The position numbers and the translations under genes were made by a program. The notes beneath the pieces were generated by a model. It had not been told where the DNA came from, did not search any database, and saw nothing but the letters and a program-made list of their open reading frames with translations. Shown here in pieces: positions 1,806-8,414 of a stretch of 64,000 nt of DNA. Position 1 is the stretch's first letter. Every line of letters begins with the position of its first letter. The stretch lies in NCBI RefSeq assembly GCF_001457475.1, contig NZ_LN831029.1, positions 2,480,001-2,544,000 on the forward strand. Direction: 5' to 3'. This stretch comes from Achromobacter xylosoxidans (GTDB lineage Bacteria; Pseudomonadota; Gammaproteobacteria; Burkholderiales; Burkholderiaceae_B).

Positions 1806-2660
1806 CTAACCAATCGCCCCATAGATCCGCCGCGCCTCGGCGGCATCCGCCACCGGCCGCCCCAAAGCAATCGCCCCTTCCACCGCCTGCCGCACCAACT
1901 CGCCATTTCCCGAAGCCACCGAACCATCCCGCAGCTTCAGATTATTCTCGAACCCCACTCGCATATGCCCCCCGAACGCCGCTGCCGTCGTCACGCAGGC
2001 ATTCTCCTGCGCCCCGAACGCGCACACCGCCCACGGCAGCGAATGATCGTAGGCCGCCAGGAACGGCAGCAGGTCATAGGCCGACGACGTCTGTCCCACG
2101 CTGTAGCGCCCCAGCACGAACAGCACCGACCACGCGCCCGGCGGCACCAGCCCCCGCGCGCGCAGCGACAGCCAGCGCCGCACATCGCCCTCGTCGTACA
2201 GAATGATCTGCGTCATGATGCGCCGCTCTGCCACCCAGGCCAGGAACGCCGCCAGCTCGTCTTCCGGAATCTCCGGCACGGCGATCTCGCGCAGGCCGAT
2301 CGACACCGCTTCCGGCTGCAGCTCGCGCACCAGGGCCATCTGCTCGGCCGCCTTGTACACGCCGGCCGCCTCGCTCGTCACCTGCACCAGCAGCTCGTCG
2401 CCGACCGCGCGGCGCACCGCCGCCAGCGCATCGCGGTAGGCCTGCGCGTCCAGCAGATGGCTGCCGTCCGGCTTGCGCACGTGCATGTGCATCATTGCCG
2501 CGCCCGCGTCCAGGCAGGCGCGGGCTTCCTGGGCCAGGGCCTCGGCCGTCAGCGGCACCGCCGGATGGTCGGCGGCCTTCTTGTAGGCGCCGTTGGGCGC
2601 CACCGTCACGATGACGGGCGACTCGGCCAGGGCGGGGCGGGGGAACTGGACGGCGCTCAC
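1806..2660 (-). CDS. Beta-keto acid cleavage enzyme (BKACE, DUF849 family)
   Basis: A 284-residue TIM-barrel protein. The family condenses a beta-keto acid with acetyl-CoA, releasing acetoacetate and a new acyl-CoA; the founding member, Kce, acts on 3-keto-5-aminohexanoate in lysine fermentation. Visible family marks are APNGA near residue 21 and HMHVRKPDG at 58-66, holding the two zinc-binding histidines (H58, H60). Also present are the central EAVSIGLRE and the late GHMRVGFENN. The ATG overlaps the stop of the upstream dehydrogenase gene (ATGA), so the two enzymes probably act in series: oxidation of a 3-hydroxy acid, then cleavage of the 3-keto acid. The substrate cannot be read from the sequence; carnitine-like and sugar-acid substrates are both known for this enzyme pairing. 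Confidence 0.9.
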   Translation of the reverse strand: MSAVQFPRPALAESPVIVTVAPNGAYKKAADHPAVPLTAEALAQEARACLDAGAAMMHMHVRKPDGSHLLDAQAYRDALAAVRRAVGDELLVQVTSEAAGVYKAAEQMALVRELQPEAVSIGLREIAVPEIPEDELAAFLAWVAERRIMTQIILYDEGDVRRWLSLRARGLVPPGAWSVLFVLGRYSVGQTSSAYDLLPFLAAYDHSLPWAVCAFGAQENACVTTAAAFGGHMRVGFENNLKLRDGSVASGNGELVRQAVEGAIALGRPVADAAEARRIYGAIG

Positions 2661-3619
2661 GGCTGGATCTCCGGCAGTTCCGGCGCGATCAGGTCCAGGC
2701 CCGCGCGCAGCAGCCGGTCATAGCGCGCGCGCTCGGCGGCGATGGTCTCCGGCGTCCAGGCATAGAAACCTTCGCCCGCCTTCATGCCGTGGCGGCCGTC
2801 GGCGGCGCGCTCGGTCAGGCAGCGCGCCGGATGGTCGTCATTGCAGAACGTCGGGTACATGGTCGCGCCCGCCGCCGCGTGCACGTCGATGCCGGCGTGG
2901 TCGCGCTGCATCACCGGCCCGGCCGCCAGGAAGCGGAAACCGAAACCGAAGCGCACCGCCGCGTCCACGTCCTCGGGCGAGGCGATGCCGCGGTCGATCA
3001 GGTTGAAGGCCTCGCGCGACAGCGCGTGCTGCAGGCGGTTGGCCAGGAAACCCGGCAGGTCCTGCCGCACCTTCACCGGCACGCTGCCGCAGCGGCGCAT
3101 GAAGGCGATCAGCGCGTCGGCGCGGGCCTCGTCGCTGGTCTCGGCCATCACCACCTCGACCAGCGGCACCAGGTGCGCCGGCATGAAGAAGTGCAGGCCC
3201 AGCATGCGCTCGCGCGTGGCCAGCCCCTGGCCGATGGCGCTGATCGGGAAACTGGAACTGTTGCTCGCCAGGATGGCGTCGGGCCGCGCGCGGCGCACCA
3301 GCTCGGCGAACAGCGCCTGCTTGATGTCCAGCCGTTCCGGCACGCACTCGATCACCAGATCGACGCTGGCCCAGTCCACCTGGTCCAGGCTGGCGGCCGT
3401 GGCCAGTTGCGCCACCTGGGCCTCGCGGCCGATGGTCTTGAGATTGTCGGCCACCCGCGCCGGCAATGCGGCCGCGCGCGCCGCGTCCGGCTCGATCACC
3501 GTCGTGCGGCAGGCGGCGCGCGTCAGCACCACCGCCACGTCGGCGCCCATGGTGCCGCCGCCCACCACCACCGCATGCGCCGCGCCCGGATTGGGCAGGG
3601 CCTTCGCGTCCGTCTGCAT
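2657..3619 (-). CDS. 3-hydroxyacyl-CoA dehydrogenase-family NAD-dependent dehydrogenase
   Basis: A 320-residue enzyme with an N-terminal Rossmann domain (GGGTMG at about 20-25) and the C-terminal 3HCDH domain. HFFMPAHLVPLVEVV contains the expected catalytic histidine. The start at 3619 is chosen because AAGGAG lies 7 bases upstream. The length is that of single-domain members such as carnitine 3-dehydrogenase and L-gulonate 3-dehydrogenase, not of long bifunctional beta-oxidation proteins. Paired with the cleavage enzyme, it probably oxidises a free 3-hydroxy acid rather than a CoA ester; that is inference. Its promoter carries the operator module described at 3705-3771. Confidence 0.88.
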   Translation of the reverse strand: MQTDAKALPNPGAAHAVVVGGGTMGADVAVVLTRAACRTTVIEPDAARAAALPARVADNLKTIGREAQVAQLATAASLDQVDWASVDLVIECVPERLDIKQALFAELVRRARPDAILASNSSSFPISAIGQGLATRERMLGLHFFMPAHLVPLVEVVMAETSDEARADALIAFMRRCGSVPVKVRQDLPGFLANRLQHALSREAFNLIDRGIASPEDVDAAVRFGFGFRFLAAGPVMQRDHAGIDVHAAAGATMYPTFCNDDHPARCLTERAADGRHGMKAGEGFYAWTPETIAAERARYDRLLRAGLDLIAPELPEIQP

Positions 3620-3704: not shown

Positions 3705-3771
3705 AGTGTAGAGAAGCTTGTTTGATTGATGAATCAGATTTTTTGGATAGAATGATCGACAATTCGGATCA
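3705..3771 (-). promoter_or_regulatory. LysR-type operator plus promoter for the dehydrogenase/cleavage-enzyme operon
   Basis: Reading on the minus strand toward the dehydrogenase, the order is: TGATC-N9-GATCA (3753-3771), TCTGATTCATCAATCAA (3722-3738), -35 TTCATC (3728-3733), a 17-base spacer, and -10 TACACT (3705-3710). Both palindromes, their spacing and both promoter hexamers recur at 7291-7357 in front of the Bug receptor gene. TGATC-N9-GATCA contains the T-N11-A core typical of LysR recognition sites and ends one base before the LysR ATG. A recognition/activation site pair for the LysR protein encoded at 3772 is therefore likely. Confidence 0.75.
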
Positions 3772-4701
3772 ATGAGCCAGGCGCAGGACGGCATGCAAAT
3801 CAATCTTTCGATGCGCGACATCGACACCACCCTGGTGCTGGGCCGCACCCTCAACTTCCGCCAGGCGGCGGCGCAGTTGCACCTGTCGCAGTCGGCCCTG
3901 TCCACGCAGATCCAGCGCATCGAGGAGGCGCTGGGCGTGCGGCTGTTCGACCGCACCACCCGCACCGTGCGGCTGACGGCGGCGGGCGAGGTCTTCATGC
4001 AGCAGGCCGCCGCCCTGCAGGTAGCCTTCCGCGACGCCATTGCCGCGGTCAGCGGCATCGCCAGCGCCGAGCACGGCCAGGTGTCGGTGGCGGCGCTGCC
4101 GTCGCTGGCCGCGCGCCTGTTGCCGCGGGTGTTGATGGCCTACCGCCAGGCGCATCCGCAGGTGGCGCTGAAGGTGCGCGACACGCTGTCGGGGCCGGCC
4201 TTCGACCTGGTGCGCGCCGGCGACGTGGACTTCGCGCTGACCGCCGCCGATCCGCAGCACGCCGACCTGCATTACCAGCCGCTGATGTCCGACAGCTTCC
4301 TGCTGCTGATCCCCGAGGCGCATCCGCTGGCGCGATCCAGGGGGCCGCTGCGCTGGGCCGACACGGCCGGCGCGGCGCACGTGTCGATGGTGCATCCGAG
4401 CAGCGTGCGCCAGTACACCGAATGGGCCTTCCTGCAGAATCGCATCCGCTTCACGCCGGCCTTCGAGGCCGAACACCTGACCACCATCGTGGCGATGGTG
4501 GAGTGCGGTTTCGGGGTGGCGGCATTACCGGAAATCGCGGCCGGCGCGGTGGCGCAGAACGGCATCGTGCAGCGGCCGCTGATCGGCCCGGTGGCCGAAC
4601 GCTCGATCGGGCTGGTGACGGCGCGCAACCGCAGCCTGCCGCCGGCGGCCGCGGCGCTGGTGGCGATGCTGCGGCAGTATCTGGCTGAAGAGGCGCGGTG
4701 A
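3772..4701 (+). CDS. LysR-family transcriptional regulator (likely controls the 1.8-8.4 kb locus)
   Basis: A 309-residue LysR protein. It has a winged-helix DNA-binding domain at about 18-75 (FRQAAAQLHLSQSALSTQIQRIE, then LFDRTTRTVRLTAAG) and an effector-binding domain in the remainder. It is divergent from the dehydrogenase/cleavage-enzyme operon. The 50 bases immediately before the ATG hold an operator module that is repeated before the Bug receptor at 7.4 kb, so this is the best candidate for controlling both. The ATG at 3772 has no clear ribosome-binding site and abuts the operator; the ATG at 3793, just after an AGGAC stretch, is a reasonable alternative start. Confidence 0.92.
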   Translation: MSQAQDGMQINLSMRDIDTTLVLGRTLNFRQAAAQLHLSQSALSTQIQRIEEALGVRLFDRTTRTVRLTAAGEVFMQQAAALQVAFRDAIAAVSGIASAEHGQVSVAALPSLAARLLPRVLMAYRQAHPQVALKVRDTLSGPAFDLVRAGDVDFALTAADPQHADLHYQPLMSDSFLLLIPEAHPLARSRGPLRWADTAGAAHVSMVHPSSVRQYTEWAFLQNRIRFTPAFEAEHLTTIVAMVECGFGVAALPEIAAGAVAQNGIVQRPLIGPVAERSIGLVTARNRSLPPAAAALVAMLRQYLAEEAR

Positions 4702-4720
4702 GGTCGCGGCGGGTATGGTG

Positions 4721-5404
4721 TCAGGCGCCGCGGCGCGCCTGTTCCGACGCCAGGTAGGCGTCGCGCGAGGGCAGCAGGTGCTCGCGGCACAGCGTCATCA
4801 GCGCGGCGCGGTCGCCGTCGCGCAGGGCGTGGATCATGGCCCAGTGTTCCTGGCGGGCGCGTTCGCGGTAATTGGCGGCCGCCAGCGAACCGAAGCGGAT
4901 CGGATGGGTGCGGCGCGCGTATTCCTCGATGGCCTGGCCCAGCACCGCGTTGTCGAGCAGGCTGAACAACTCGCGGTGAAAACGCTGGTTGCTGCGGAAC
5001 ACGCGGCGCGCGTCGCCATCGGCCACGGCCGCGTCGTGCTCGCGCTGCACCGCGATCAACGCCGCCAGCCGCGCCGGCGGCACCGGCAGCGGCATCAGGC
5101 TGGCGGCATGCACTTCCAGCACTTCGCGCAGCGCGTACAGCTCCATCACCTCGCGCGCCGAGAAAGCCCGCACCACCGCGCCGACGTTGCGCTTGCGCTC
5201 GACCACGCCCAGCAGCTCCAGCTCCACCAGCACCTGGCGCACCGCGTGGCGCTTCATGTCGAAGCGCGCCATCAGCTCGTCCTCGGTCAGCCGCTCGCGC
5301 GGATGCAGCCGGCCGAAGACGATGTCTTCCTCCAGCGCGGCGACCGCCGCCGCCAGGGCGTCGGGCGCTTGGGGTTCGAGGGTGGCGGGGCTGATGGCGT
5401 TCAT
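4721..5404 (-). CDS. GntR-family regulator, FadR/FCD subfamily
   Basis: 227 residues: an N-terminal winged helix (RLTEDELMARFDMKRHAVRQVLVELELLGVVERKRNVGAVV) and an all-helical FCD ligand domain. The FCD domain shows the metal-binding pattern D/R-x3-H (FRSNQRFHREL) and later histidines (HWAMIHALR, then REHLLPSRD). FCD regulators usually repress genes for sugar acids or organic acids until the substrate binds. The gene follows the dehydratase by 18 bases on the same strand, so it is probably co-transcribed with it. The ATG at 5404 is preceded by a purine-rich GGGGGAAAGG only on the opposite strand, so the ribosome-binding site is poor. The inverted repeat at 7214-7227 is a candidate target. Confidence 0.9.
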   Translation of the reverse strand: MNAISPATLEPQAPDALAAAVAALEEDIVFGRLHPRERLTEDELMARFDMKRHAVRQVLVELELLGVVERKRNVGAVVRAFSAREVMELYALREVLEVHAASLMPLPVPPARLAALIAVQREHDAAVADGDARRVFRSNQRFHRELFSLLDNAVLGQAIEEYARRTHPIRFGSLAAANYRERARQEHWAMIHALRDGDRAALMTLCREHLLPSRDAYLASEQARRGA

Positions 5405-5422
5405 GGGCAAGGGGGAAAGGCG

Positions 5423-7198
5423 TTATTGCTTGGGCACGGTGTCGCGGGTGGCGCCGGCCCGCAGGAAGTCGAAGTCCACGCCCTGGTCGGCCTGCGTCAC
5501 GGTCTGCAGGAACAGCTTGCGGTAGCCGCGCTCGGCCGCCGGACGCTCGACCGGGCCGGCCGCCATGCGGCGCGCCAGCTCGGCATCCTCGACCAGCAGG
5601 GCGATTTCGCGCCGCGCCACCGACAGGCGGATCCGGTCGCCATTTTGCACGTAGGCGAGCGGTCCGCCAATCGCGGCCTCCGGGGTGACGTGCAGCACGA
5701 TGGTGCCGGCCGCCGTGCCGCTCATGCGGCCGTCGGAAATCCGCACCATGTCCTTGACGCCGGTGCGCGCCAGCTTCTTGGGGATCGGCATGTAGCCGGC
5801 CTCGGGCATGCCGGGCGCGCCGGTGGGGCCGATGCGCTTGAGCACCAGCACGTCGTCGGCGGTCACGTCCAGCGCCTCGTCGTCGATGCGGCGGGCCATG
5901 TCCTCGGCGTCCTCGAACACCACCGCGCGGCCTTCGTGCTCCATCAGCTTGGGATTGGCGGCCGACTGCTTGATGATGGCGCCGCCGGGCGCCAGGTTGC
6001 CGCGCAGCACGGCCAGGCCGCCCACCGGATAGATGGGCGCGGCGACGCTGCGGATCACGTCCTGCTTGAACGGCGCGGGGGCGTCGTCCAGTTCCTCGCC
6101 CAGGGTGCGGCCCGAGACGGTCAGCGCGTCCAGGTGCAGCAGCGGGCGCAGTTCGCGCAGCAGCGCCAGCATGCCGCCGGCGTGGTGGAAGTCTTCCATG
6201 TAGTGCTGGCCGGAGGGCTTGAGGTCCACCAGCACGGGCGTCTCGCGGCTCATGCGGTCGAGCCCGGCCAGGTCGATATTGATGCCCAGGCGGCCGGCGA
6301 TGGCGGTCAGGTGCACGATGCCGTTGGTCGAGCCGCCGATGGCCAGCAGCACGCGCAGCGCGTTCTCGATGGACTTGCCGGTGATGATGCGGTCGGGCGT
6401 CAGGCGCGCGGCCGCCATGGCGACGGCGGTGGCGCCGGTGCGCTCGGCCACGCGCACGCGGTCGGCGGTGACGGCCGGGGCGGACGCGCCGCCGGACACC
6501 ATCATGCCCATGGCCTCGGTCAGGCAGGCCATGGTGCTGGCGGTGCCCATCACCGAACAGGTGCCGACGCTGGCCACCAACTGGTTGTTGACGTCGGCGA
6601 TCTCGGGCGCGTCGATCTCCTCGGCGCGGTAGCGGCCCCAGTAGCGGCGGCAGTCGGTGCAGGCGCCGACGCGTTCGCCGCGGTGCGAGCCGGTCAGCAT
6701 CGAGCCGGTCACCAGCTGGATCGCGGGCACGCCGGCGGACGAGGCGCCCATCAACTGCGCCGGCACCGTCTTGTCGCAACCGCCGATCAGCACCACCGCG
6801 TCCATCGGCTGCGCGCGGATCATTTCCTCGGTGTCCATCGACATCAGGTTGCGCAGGTACATGCTGGTGGGCTGCGAGAAGCTCTCGTGCACCGAGATGG
6901 TGGGGAAGTCCATCGGCAGGCCGCCGGCCAGCATCACGCCGCGCTTGACCGCCTCGATCAGTTGCGGCGCGTTGCCGTGGCAGGGGTTGTAGCTGCTGCC
7001 GGTGTTGACGATGCCGATGATGGGACGCGCCAGCGCGTCGTCGGACAGGCCGGCGCCCTTGATGAAGGCCTTGCGCAGGAACAGCGAAAAGCCGGTGTCG
7101 CCGTAGTTGGTGAGCCCGCGCGCCACGCCGGTGCTGCGCGCGCCGTCGCTGTCGAAGGGGCCCTGGGCGGGCTTGCCGCCCTTGGTGTCGTCCGTCAT
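5423..7198 (-). CDS. IlvD/Edd-family dehydratase (probably a sugar-acid dehydratase)
   Basis: 591 residues, the usual size for dihydroxy-acid and aldonic-acid dehydratases. These iron-sulfur enzymes remove water from 2,3-dihydroxy acids to give 2-keto-3-deoxy acids. Cluster cysteines are visible in PCHGN, GGCDKTVPAQ and GTCSVMGTASTM, and the CTDCRRYWGRYR segment resembles pentonate/hexonate dehydratases more than IlvD of branched-chain synthesis. The conserved GRMSGTAAG and the C-terminal swivel domain are present. The start is the ATG at 7198, preceded by GGGAAGC. Standing beside a Bug receptor, FCD GntR and a keto-acid-cleaving pair, a catabolic role on a sugar acid is inferred; the exact substrate is unknown. 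Confidence 0.9.
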   Translation of the reverse strand: MTDDTKGGKPAQGPFDSDGARSTGVARGLTNYGDTGFSLFLRKAFIKGAGLSDDALARPIIGIVNTGSSYNPCHGNAPQLIEAVKRGVMLAGGLPMDFPTISVHESFSQPTSMYLRNLMSMDTEEMIRAQPMDAVVLIGGCDKTVPAQLMGASSAGVPAIQLVTGSMLTGSHRGERVGACTDCRRYWGRYRAEEIDAPEIADVNNQLVASVGTCSVMGTASTMACLTEAMGMMVSGGASAPAVTADRVRVAERTGATAVAMAAARLTPDRIITGKSIENALRVLLAIGGSTNGIVHLTAIAGRLGINIDLAGLDRMSRETPVLVDLKPSGQHYMEDFHHAGGMLALLRELRPLLHLDALTVSGRTLGEELDDAPAPFKQDVIRSVAAPIYPVGGLAVLRGNLAPGGAIIKQSAANPKLMEHEGRAVVFEDAEDMARRIDDEALDVTADDVLVLKRIGPTGAPGMPEAGYMPIPKKLARTGVKDMVRISDGRMSGTAAGTIVLHVTPEAAIGGPLAYVQNGDRIRLSVARREIALLVEDAELARRMAAGPVERPAAERGYRKLFLQTVTQADQGVDFDFLRAGATRDTVPKQ

Positions 7199-7213
7199 TT
7201 TGCTTCCCGATAA

Positions 7214-7227
7214 TATTATTGATAATA
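7214..7227. promoter_or_regulatory. Perfect inverted repeat just upstream of the dehydratase gene (candidate GntR operator)
   Basis: TATTAT-TG-ATAATA: six-base arms, two-base centre, 16 bases before the dehydratase ATG. Its position inside the leader or promoter suits a repressor, and the FCD GntR protein encoded downstream in the same operon is the natural candidate. A second perfect palindrome, ATAAATATTTAT, lies at 7279-7290. Confidence 0.5.
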
Positions 7228-7290
7228 CAGGGCGAAGATCATATACAGCCTGGGAAACGCCCGGCAAGCGCTTTTGCGATAAATATTTAT

Positions 7291-7357
7291 TGATCTCCAA
7301 ATAAGATCAGTCGATAGAAAAATTCTGATTCATCAATCAAGATTGGCCTCCTACACT
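7291..7357 (+). promoter_or_regulatory. Second copy of the LysR-type operator/promoter module, in front of the Bug receptor
   Basis: In the plus direction: TGATC-N9-GATCA (7291-7309), TCTGATTCATCAATCAA (7324-7340), -35 TTCATC (7329-7334), a 17-base spacer and -10 TACACT (7352-7357). The 17-mer is identical to the copy at 3722-3738 in opposite orientation, and the two palindrome centres are 32.5 bp apart in both places. The module points at the Bug gene here and at the dehydrogenase operon there, so both are probably activated by the same LysR protein. Confidence 0.75.
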
Positions 7358-7418: not shown

Positions 7419-8414
7419 ATGTCAGACCTGCGTCTGCGGCCCCGCCGCGCCTTGCTGCTTTCCCTGTTGGCCTTGTGTACCGGCGCCGCGGCGCCCGCCG
7501 TGGCCGCCGACGCCTATCCCGACAAGCCCATCCGCCTGATCGTGCCGTACCCGCCCGGGGGCGCCACCGACGTGATCGGCCGCGTGCTGGCGCAGGAACT
7601 GACCGGCGCGCTGGGCCAGTCGGTGATCGTCGAAAACCGCGCCGGCGCCGCCGGCAACATCGGCGCCGACCAGGTCGCCAAGGCCCAGCCCGACGGCTAT
7701 ACGCTACTGATGGGCGCGCTAACCAGCCATTCGATCAACGCGGCGCTGTACCGCGGCCGCGTCACCTACGACGTGGAAAAGAGCTTCGCGCCGGTGTCCA
7801 TCGTCGGCACCGTGCCGCTGGTGTTCGTGGTCAACCCCTCGGTGCAGGCCAATGACCTGAAGCAGTTGATCGCGCTGGCCAAGTCGCGCCCGGGCTACGT
7901 CACCATGGCGTCGGCCGGCAACGGTTCGCCGCAGCATCTGGCCGGCGAGATGTTCAAGCGCACCGCCGGCGTGGACATCCTGCATGTGCCCTACAAGGGC
8001 AGCGGCCCGGCCATGACCGACCTGATGGGCGGCCAGGTGCTCAGCATGATCGAGACCGTGCCGGCCTCGCAGGCCAGCATCAAGGCCGGCAAGCTGCGCG
8101 CGCTGGCGGTGACTTCGGCGCAACGCGTCGAGGCGCTGCCGGACGTGCCGACCGCGGCCGAAGCCGGCCTGCCGGGCTTCGAGGTCAGCTCCATGTTCGG
8201 CATCGTCGCGCCGGCCGGCACGCCGGCGCCGGTGATCGACCGCCTGAACGGCGAGCTCAAGAAGATCCTGGCCAAGCCGGCGGTCAAGGCTTCGCTGCTG
8301 AACCAGGGCGCCATTGCCGAATGGACCAGCCCGGCCGATGCCGGCGCGCGCGTGTCGGCCGAGGTGGCGCGCTGGACCAAGGTCATCGACGAGGCCGGGG
8401 TCAAGCCCGAGTAA
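7419..8414 (+). CDS. Bug/TctC-family periplasmic solute-binding receptor
   Basis: 331 residues with a signal peptide (RRALLLSLLALCTGAAAPAVAA, cut before DAYPDKP). The family motifs follow: IRLIVPYPPGGATD, IVENRAGAAGNIGAD and AKAQPDGYTLL. Such receptors capture carboxylates and related small acids in the periplasm and may feed a TctAB permease encoded elsewhere. The ATG at 7419 is chosen because AGGAGA sits 5 bases upstream. No permease gene is adjacent, which is common for this expanded family in Bordetella and Achromobacter. The shared operator ties it to the dehydrogenase/cleavage-enzyme operon, so it probably binds that pathway's substrate. Confidence 0.93.
   Translation: MSDLRLRPRRALLLSLLALCTGAAAPAVAADAYPDKPIRLIVPYPPGGATDVIGRVLAQELTGALGQSVIVENRAGAAGNIGADQVAKAQPDGYTLLMGALTSHSINAALYRGRVTYDVEKSFAPVSIVGTVPLVFVVNPSVQANDLKQLIALAKSRPGYVTMASAGNGSPQHLAGEMFKRTAGVDILHVPYKGSGPAMTDLMGGQVLSMIETVPASQASIKAGKLRALAVTSAQRVEALPDVPTAAEAGLPGFEVSSMFGIVAPAGTPAPVIDRLNGELKKILAKPAVKASLLNQGAIAEWTSPADAGARVSAEVARWTKVIDEAGVKPE

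Follow-up and report, generated by a model that had tools for sequence, protein, structure and literature searches.

A 64,000-nucleotide stretch of the Achromobacter xylosoxidans genome (contig NZ_LN831029.1, positions 2,480,001 to 2,544,000; called the window below, with positions counted from its first letter) carries two copies of a promoter module of about 50 bp. We will argue, with high confidence, that each copy is a complete target promoter of the LysR type and that the two make up one small regulon, under the control of the LysR protein whose gene lies at 3793-4701. One copy precedes the gene of a 3-hydroxyacyl-CoA dehydrogenase-like protein (3HCDH), which is followed by that of a beta-keto acid cleavage enzyme (BKACE), and the other precedes the gene of a periplasmic solute receptor of the Bug/TctC type. 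The two copies share sequence and geometry, both are conserved among relatives, exactly two are found in the genomes that bear the module, and they occur together with this LysR. The parts of the modules and the genes concerned are:

3705-3710, minus strand: -10 hexamer TACACT of the dehydrogenase(-BKACE) promoter
3722-3738, minus strand: predicted activation site of the dehydrogenase promoter, the 17-mer TCTGATTCATCAATCAA with half-sites TGATT-N4-AATCA, overlapping the putative -35 TTCATC
3739-3752, minus strand: 14-base linker of the dehydrogenase module, fixed in length and partly conserved (TTCTATCCAAAAAA)
3753-3771, minus strand: predicted recognition site of the dehydrogenase promoter, TGATC-N9-GATCA, an ATC-N9-GAT / T-N11-A LysR box
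7291-7309, plus strand: predicted recognition site of the Bug promoter, TGATC-N9-GATCA
7310-7323, plus strand: 14-base linker of the Bug module, GTCGATAGAAAAAT, with TC-N-AT and an A-tract conserved and no lysR -10
7324-7340, plus strand: predicted activation site of the Bug promoter, here the same 17-mer, in relatives approximately CTGATTNWTYWATCAR
7352-7357, plus strand: -10 hexamer TACACT of the Bug promoter
1806-2660, minus strand: BKACE gene (PF05853), second gene of the first controlled unit
2657-3619, minus strand: 3HCDH dehydrogenase gene, first gene of that unit
3793-4701, plus strand: lysR (PF00126 and PF03466), with the likely start at 3793 and not 3772
7419-8414, plus strand: Bug/TctC-type receptor gene (PF03401), the second controlled unit

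A sequence-only reading of the window had reported an identical 17-mer on the two strands, a TGATC-N9-GATCA with its centre 32.5 bp away in each case, and a shared -35 TTCATC, 17-base spacer and -10 TACACT. These observations are correct to the base at both copies. At 3722-3738 (minus) and 7324-7340 (plus), TCTGATTCATCAATCAA has its sole window matches at up to 3 mismatches, while the shuffled window gives 0.02 matches on average and two copies in 0/100 shuffles. The exact TGATC-N9-GATCA sites at 3753-3771 and 7291-7309 are by themselves unremarkable, since the motif has 4 window matches at up to 1 mismatch, a number equalled in 4/100 shuffles. The gap between recognition site and 17-mer is 14 bases in both copies. 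TTCATC and TACACT lie at 3733-3728 and 3710-3705 on the minus strand and at 7329-7334 and 7352-7357 on the plus strand, and read in promoter direction each copy consists of the recognition site, 14 bases, the 17-mer, 11 bases and TACACT.

The conservation of the module was followed by scanning genome contigs with the LysR protein, which gave 46 loci. One of these, L052, was dropped (24% identity, partial, in a metagenome-assembled genome of the Zetaproteobacteria), and the remaining 45 belong to Achromobacter, Bordetella, Cupriavidus and 'Burkholderiaceae bacterium 16'. The module precedes the dehydrogenase gene in 45/45 loci, with 0-3 mismatches over 27 scored bases, and the bug gene in 30/30 Bug-holding loci, with 0-5 mismatches; the other 15 hold no Bug inside the fetched stretch and were excluded from the Bug-promoter count. 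Conservation of the 17-mer and of TGATC-N9-GATCA upstream of orthologues, on which the sequence-only reading had staked its proposal, is found in every locus of both sets. In both promoter classes, the 17-mer and the module offsets -2 to 4, 14-18, 20, 23-24 and 27-30 are kept at 77% or more, the exceptions being offsets 33, 41 and 44 (60-63%, on the Bug side), and most positions of the N9 and the spacer vary across loci. Around the first recognition site, conservation reaches ATTGATC-N9-GATCANT (3751-3773). A TA[CA]ACT follows 11 bases past the 17-mer in all 45 dehydrogenase promoters; at the Bug promoter this distance is 11 bases in 27/30 loci and 12 in the other 3.

The copy number of the module is quite strict. 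In its own genome (6,813,182 bases) the full module occurs at only two places at up to 3 mismatches. Taken by itself, the 17-mer also matches more loosely (2-3 mismatches) at four other places, none of them within a module at up to 3 mismatches. Exactly two modules, as would be the case for a single two-unit regulon, are present in 41/43 genomes of the genus set (own genome included), the two not showing this number being 57% and 78% complete, and in all 23 module-bearing genomes of a 200-genome family sample. Two modules were also found in 6/6 genomes reached via five Cupriavidus loci and one 'Burkholderiaceae bacterium 16' locus. In the order sample, 3/399 genomes match, all of the genus, and 0/396 outside it. 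The reversed-pattern controls of these searches, in the own genome and in the samples, gave zero matches. A broad regulon was considered and rejected: no third module (up to 3 mismatches) was found in the own genome, and none in genomes of the genus set or the family sample. The 62 fetched module-bearing loci (L072-L129 and L132-L135), some of which repeat one place and which cover only part of the module places in the genus and family sets, have a 3HCDH or Bug orthologue downstream.

The module is also paired with this particular LysR. A LysR of 81-100% identity (E <= 1e-80) is present in exactly the 23 family genomes that carry the module. Of the other 177, 175 have neither module nor LysR, and the remaining 2 (g43) hold just a LysR homologue of 52% identity, the pattern search giving no module in them. 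Within g15 (6/9) and g36 (6/10), module and LysR are jointly present or jointly absent. The earlier suggestion that one LysR serves both units is supported by these counts, with the qualification that its cleavage enzyme does not always belong to the regulon: BKACE is found in 41/45 loci and has no match in L039, L045, L047 and L048, Bordetella loci in which the module still precedes the dehydrogenase gene and which seem able to do without the enzyme in this regulon. Only the dehydrogenase and the Bug receptor are constant members. The two copies are 3.6 kb to 54 kb apart, as measured where both lie on one contig and away from its ends. In L017, L023 and L036, the genes between the two units have no module of their own, and, judged from their translations alone, they look unrelated.

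In classical LysR promoters, as described in the portions of PMC8407307 and PMC11602165 drawn on here, a recognition site lies near -65 and an activation site at -35/-10. The modules resemble them in having a divergently encoded regulator, a T-N11-A box near -64, a second site over the -35, and a site that overlaps the putative divergent regulator promoter. With the transcription start placed 7 bases after the -10, the conserved TGATC-N9-GATCA is centred at about -64 and the conserved TGATT-N4-AATCA at about -31, the spacing between the two sites being fixed and that to the -10 nearly so. From this geometry we infer activation rather than repression by LysR, as the sequence-only reading had proposed.

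The mechanism that we envisage is the following. A LysR tetramer would be held at TGATC-N9-GATCA, with a second dimer on TGATT-N4-AATCA over the -35. Once an inducer is bound, presumably one derived from the substrate by metabolism, this second dimer would shift its position, and RNA polymerase would be recruited to the weak -35/TACACT promoters. The outcome would be that the Bug receptor, for uptake, and the 3HCDH dehydrogenase are switched on, and BKACE too where it is present. At the first module, the same binding would cover the lysR -10 and start on the opposite strand, leading to autorepression.

The -35 consensus is TTGACA, and the TTCATC of the modules is far from it and has stayed so across relatives, as would suit a promoter that depends on an activator. 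This speaks against the scenario in which LysR binds both modules but mainly represses both units until relieved by an inducer, as does the placement of the two sites at about -64 and -31, which is the usual activator layout in the same portions of PMC8407307 and PMC11602165. That scenario draws on the overlap between the 17-mer and the putative -35, where bound protein could block the polymerase, and on the ability of LysR-type proteins to repress from the recognition site (PMC8407307, as far as drawn on here). We consider it improbable, and activation remains the preferred reading.

The predicted promoter of lysR itself lies within the first module:

3726-3753, plus strand: putative divergent lysR promoter, TTGATG (3726-3731), 16 bases, TAGAAT (3748-3753)

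The lysR gene diverges from the dehydrogenase gene, and the candidate boxes are kept as TAGAAT/TAAAAT and TTGATG/TAGATG in 30/30 compared loci. The Bug module shows, at these coordinates, TCGACT in 20/30 and TTGATG in 10/30. The linker at 3739-3752 contains, on the opposite strand, five of the six bases of the putative lysR -10. On the strength of this conservation and of the comparison with the Bug module, we place the putative lysR promoter, TTGATG-N16-TAGAAT, inside the first module; bound LysR would then cover it, leading to autorepression.

Between the two modules lies a second regulator gene, together with a further conserved element:

5423-7198, minus strand: ilvD/edd-type dehydratase gene, divergent from bug
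4721-5404, minus strand: gntR/FCD gene, following ilvD
7210-7226, no strand assigned: operator-like element ATAATATTATTGATAAT, between ilvD and its putative promoter and outside the LysR module

The AT-rich ATAATATTATTGATAAT is exact in 12/14 aligned ilvD-bug regions, chosen of 31 available and including the window, and near-exact in the other 2. It has ilvD on one side and, on the other, a conserved TTGC accompanied by a TATGAT that is mostly conserved. With up to 2 mismatches allowed, the genome contains it once, and loci that lack a neighbouring gntR retain it. The GntR/FCD protein probably uses it as its operator. No gntR match was found in L033, L035, L037, L039, L045, L047 and L048, which hold IlvD, Bug and the module, and all 8 checked genomes without gntR at this place have a GntR relative (60-65%) elsewhere.

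Lineages that lack this LysR offer natural contrasts. Here, 20 stretches (L139-L158) were chosen by hand from the lists of dehydrogenase and Bug homologues and are not a random sample. G103, of the genus g15, has neither a module nor a LysR at E <= 1e-80, both of which 6 of the 9 g15 genomes hold; it retains the dehydrogenase (82-83% identity), IlvD (88%) and Bug (73%). Its dehydrogenase gene follows ilvD on the same strand, there is no BKACE match in 7 kb, and ATAATATTATTGATAAT is exact before ilvD. In seven loci from three other genera (L140-L146), the genes run IlvD-GntR-dehydrogenase, with Bug divergent. No LysR or BKACE match was found in their fetched 7 kb, no module anywhere in those genomes, and their AT-rich element differs from ATAATATTATTGATAAT at 1-4 of 17 bases.

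These loci bear on the possibility that the modules belong to another regulator, either the neighbouring GntR/FCD protein or some factor that is not linked to the locus. The location of gntR between the two modules in the window and the presence of a GntR relative somewhere in 11/11 genomes checked are in line with it. However, the seven IlvD and Bug loci without a local gntR still keep their modules, whereas the IlvD-GntR-dehydrogenase genomes without a local LysR match have none; ilvD is preceded by a separate conserved element; and the module tracks this LysR in 23/23 genomes. We therefore regard control by another regulator as very improbable, and assign both modules to the LysR encoded between 3793 and 4701.

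Still less can be said for a recently duplicated intergenic stretch, or a chance likeness, with no regulator in common, which has next to no likelihood: both copies have the same 17 bases in this genome, but comparison of the two modules within each of 30 genomes gives high agreement only for the recognition-site arms (95%), the 17-mer (87%) and CTACACT (90%), a value of 58% for the linker, and low agreement for the N9 (29%), the 10-base spacer (19%) and the upstream (40%) and downstream (24%) flanks, and the dehydrogenase and Bug classes retain their own signatures through the Achromobacter, Bordetella and Cupriavidus loci. Since the arms, 17-mer and -10 are alike while the N9, spacer and flanks are unlike, this looks like selection on the parts and not copying of the stretch. 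The earlier remark that the differing spacers indicate a conserved architecture rather than a recent duplication is thus borne out.

In genomes that lack this LysR, a dehydrogenase homologue is located behind ilvD (L139) or behind ilvD-gntR (L140-L146), which suggests a rewiring between GntR and LysR control. One may tentatively speak of a natural regulator swap, with two kinds of wiring for the receptor, the sugar-acid-type dehydratase and the dehydrogenase within one family, a view that we find conceivable and somewhat short of probable. In the one kind, the dehydrogenase gene is behind ilvD-gntR, with only an AT-rich GntR-type element and no local LysR; in the other, a LysR with two 50-bp compound promoters would have taken over dehydrogenase and receptor. 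If true, two separate promoters would have acquired or lost a complete two-site activator promoter in concert.

The diverged LysR proteins provide a further comparison. In L130 and L131, where LysR is 51-52% identical, the dehydrogenase promoter still has GATCAnTnTATCnAAAA and, at the -10 offset (61-66), TAGACT. These two loci keep GATCA and the linker as nTnTATCnAAAA, and the left arm (TTATC) and the activation site are worn. In L147 and L149-L151, a LysR of 47-48% identity accompanies a different upstream sequence that cannot be fitted to the module. Beside this, the 47-48% relative adjoins a Bug gene in L147, L149 and L151, and the dehydrogenase promoters of these three loci share TTAATC(A/G)ACAATTATTTTTRATTTYACARATA, which is possibly the operator of that relative.

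It is important to point out that several observations weigh against the single-regulon interpretation. The promoter hexamers were assigned by eye, and the co-occurrence counts are not independent, the genomes being related. The additional constraint expected in the dehydrogenase module at the lysR promoter is not significant (5/11 inside vs 5/24 outside, Fisher p = 0.14). Absence of the modules with genes of similar identity kept is seen in one genome, G103, another candidate, G156, being cut by contig ends. In g43 (L130/L131 and L137/L138), the receptor encoded in that operon has no more than 51% identity, and a nearer relative (67-68%) is found elsewhere, which also weakens the idea that these loci are a simple operon fusion of the orthologous receptor. 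Finally, dehydrogenase homologues (E <= 1e-80) occur in 70/200 family genomes, 47 of which have no module. The expectation that the module flanks these genes in Achromobacter and Bordetella holds for both orthologues, and in Cupriavidus as well, but not for every homologue. Bug homologues (E <= 1e-90) are found in 95/200 family genomes, and many of the dehydrogenase and Bug homologues are only 45-70% identical. The homologues are far more widespread than the module, which therefore follows this LysR and not the gene families.

As to the regulator itself, the sequence-only reading had placed a LysR gene at 3772. The identity is right, with HTH_1 (PF00126, 70.8 bits) and LysR_substrate (PF03466, 157.1 bits) both above their gathering scores, but the start is likely not. 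The tblastn match begins at residue 5-8 in 38/45 orthologues, and the longest lysR open reading frame in L017, L023 and L033 opens at the Met corresponding to 3793. For these reasons 3793 is the likelier start, and that at 3772 was likely mis-set by the longest open reading frame. Residues 1-7 counted from 3772 are mostly not conserved and are encoded between the operator and the likely start. Among the best 25 of 53 matches to NCBIfam subfamilies, none reaches its cut-off, the best being PsrA with 174 vs 540 bits.

The BKACE assignment is based on PF05853 (242 bits), and none of the four matched NCBIfam models reaches its cut-off. In these families, 3HCDH enzymes oxidise a 3-hydroxy acid and BKACE enzymes cleave a 3-keto acid with acetyl-CoA. 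By analogy, this suggests a pathway of 3-hydroxy acid oxidation, followed by 3-keto acid cleavage where BKACE is present. The combination of a 3HCDH-fold dehydrogenase with BKACE, suited to these two steps, is shared with L-carnitine-type pathways. Unlike in those, however, the matches to NF005471 and NF005716, which we take to be the models of the L-carnitine-type dehydrogenase/BKACE pathway, are far under the curated cut-offs (109 vs 414 and 115 vs 592 bits, respectively). The IlvD relative, which scores above the cut-off of the NCBIfam subfamily NF004784, points to hydroxylated or sugar acids as the substrate. Searches against solved structures gave family relatives among the matches and indicated no substrate.

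Compared with the classical LysR case, in the portions of the two papers cited above, the difference is that a second full promoter copy drives a separate and sometimes distant receptor gene, and that genomes with the module, in the genus and family samples, carry exactly two of it. The nod box of NodD has an ATC-N9-GAT core and a length of 47 bp in the part of PMC5596368 used here. The recognition site contains exactly this core, and the module is similar in length (50 vs 47 bp). The targets are different, however, and the second site here is TGATT-N4-AATCA; the likeness is limited to the core, and descent from NodD is not claimed. Regulons of the CatM/BenM type and others for aromatic catabolism in Betaproteobacteria, one of which includes a BKACE-family (COG3246) gene, are presented in the main text of PMC6449761. 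They are likewise small, local, catabolic and predicted by comparative genomics, but their target genes differ, and the terms TGATC and Achromobacter each occur 0 times in that main text. A literature search found no title or abstract opening that describes the present regulon.

We thus see in this system a new and well-supported case of the classical LysR regulon, ordinary in kind. It is slightly distinctive in its strict two-copy rule and in the lineages that are missing the regulator and both modules together. It offers one regulator and three promoters with base-level operator models, and genomes naturally without the module as controls. The co-regulation would tie the Bug receptor to the dehydrogenase/cleavage pathway, narrowing the search for its ligand, and the lineages with and without this LysR may serve as a usable case for the rise or decay of a compound activator promoter.

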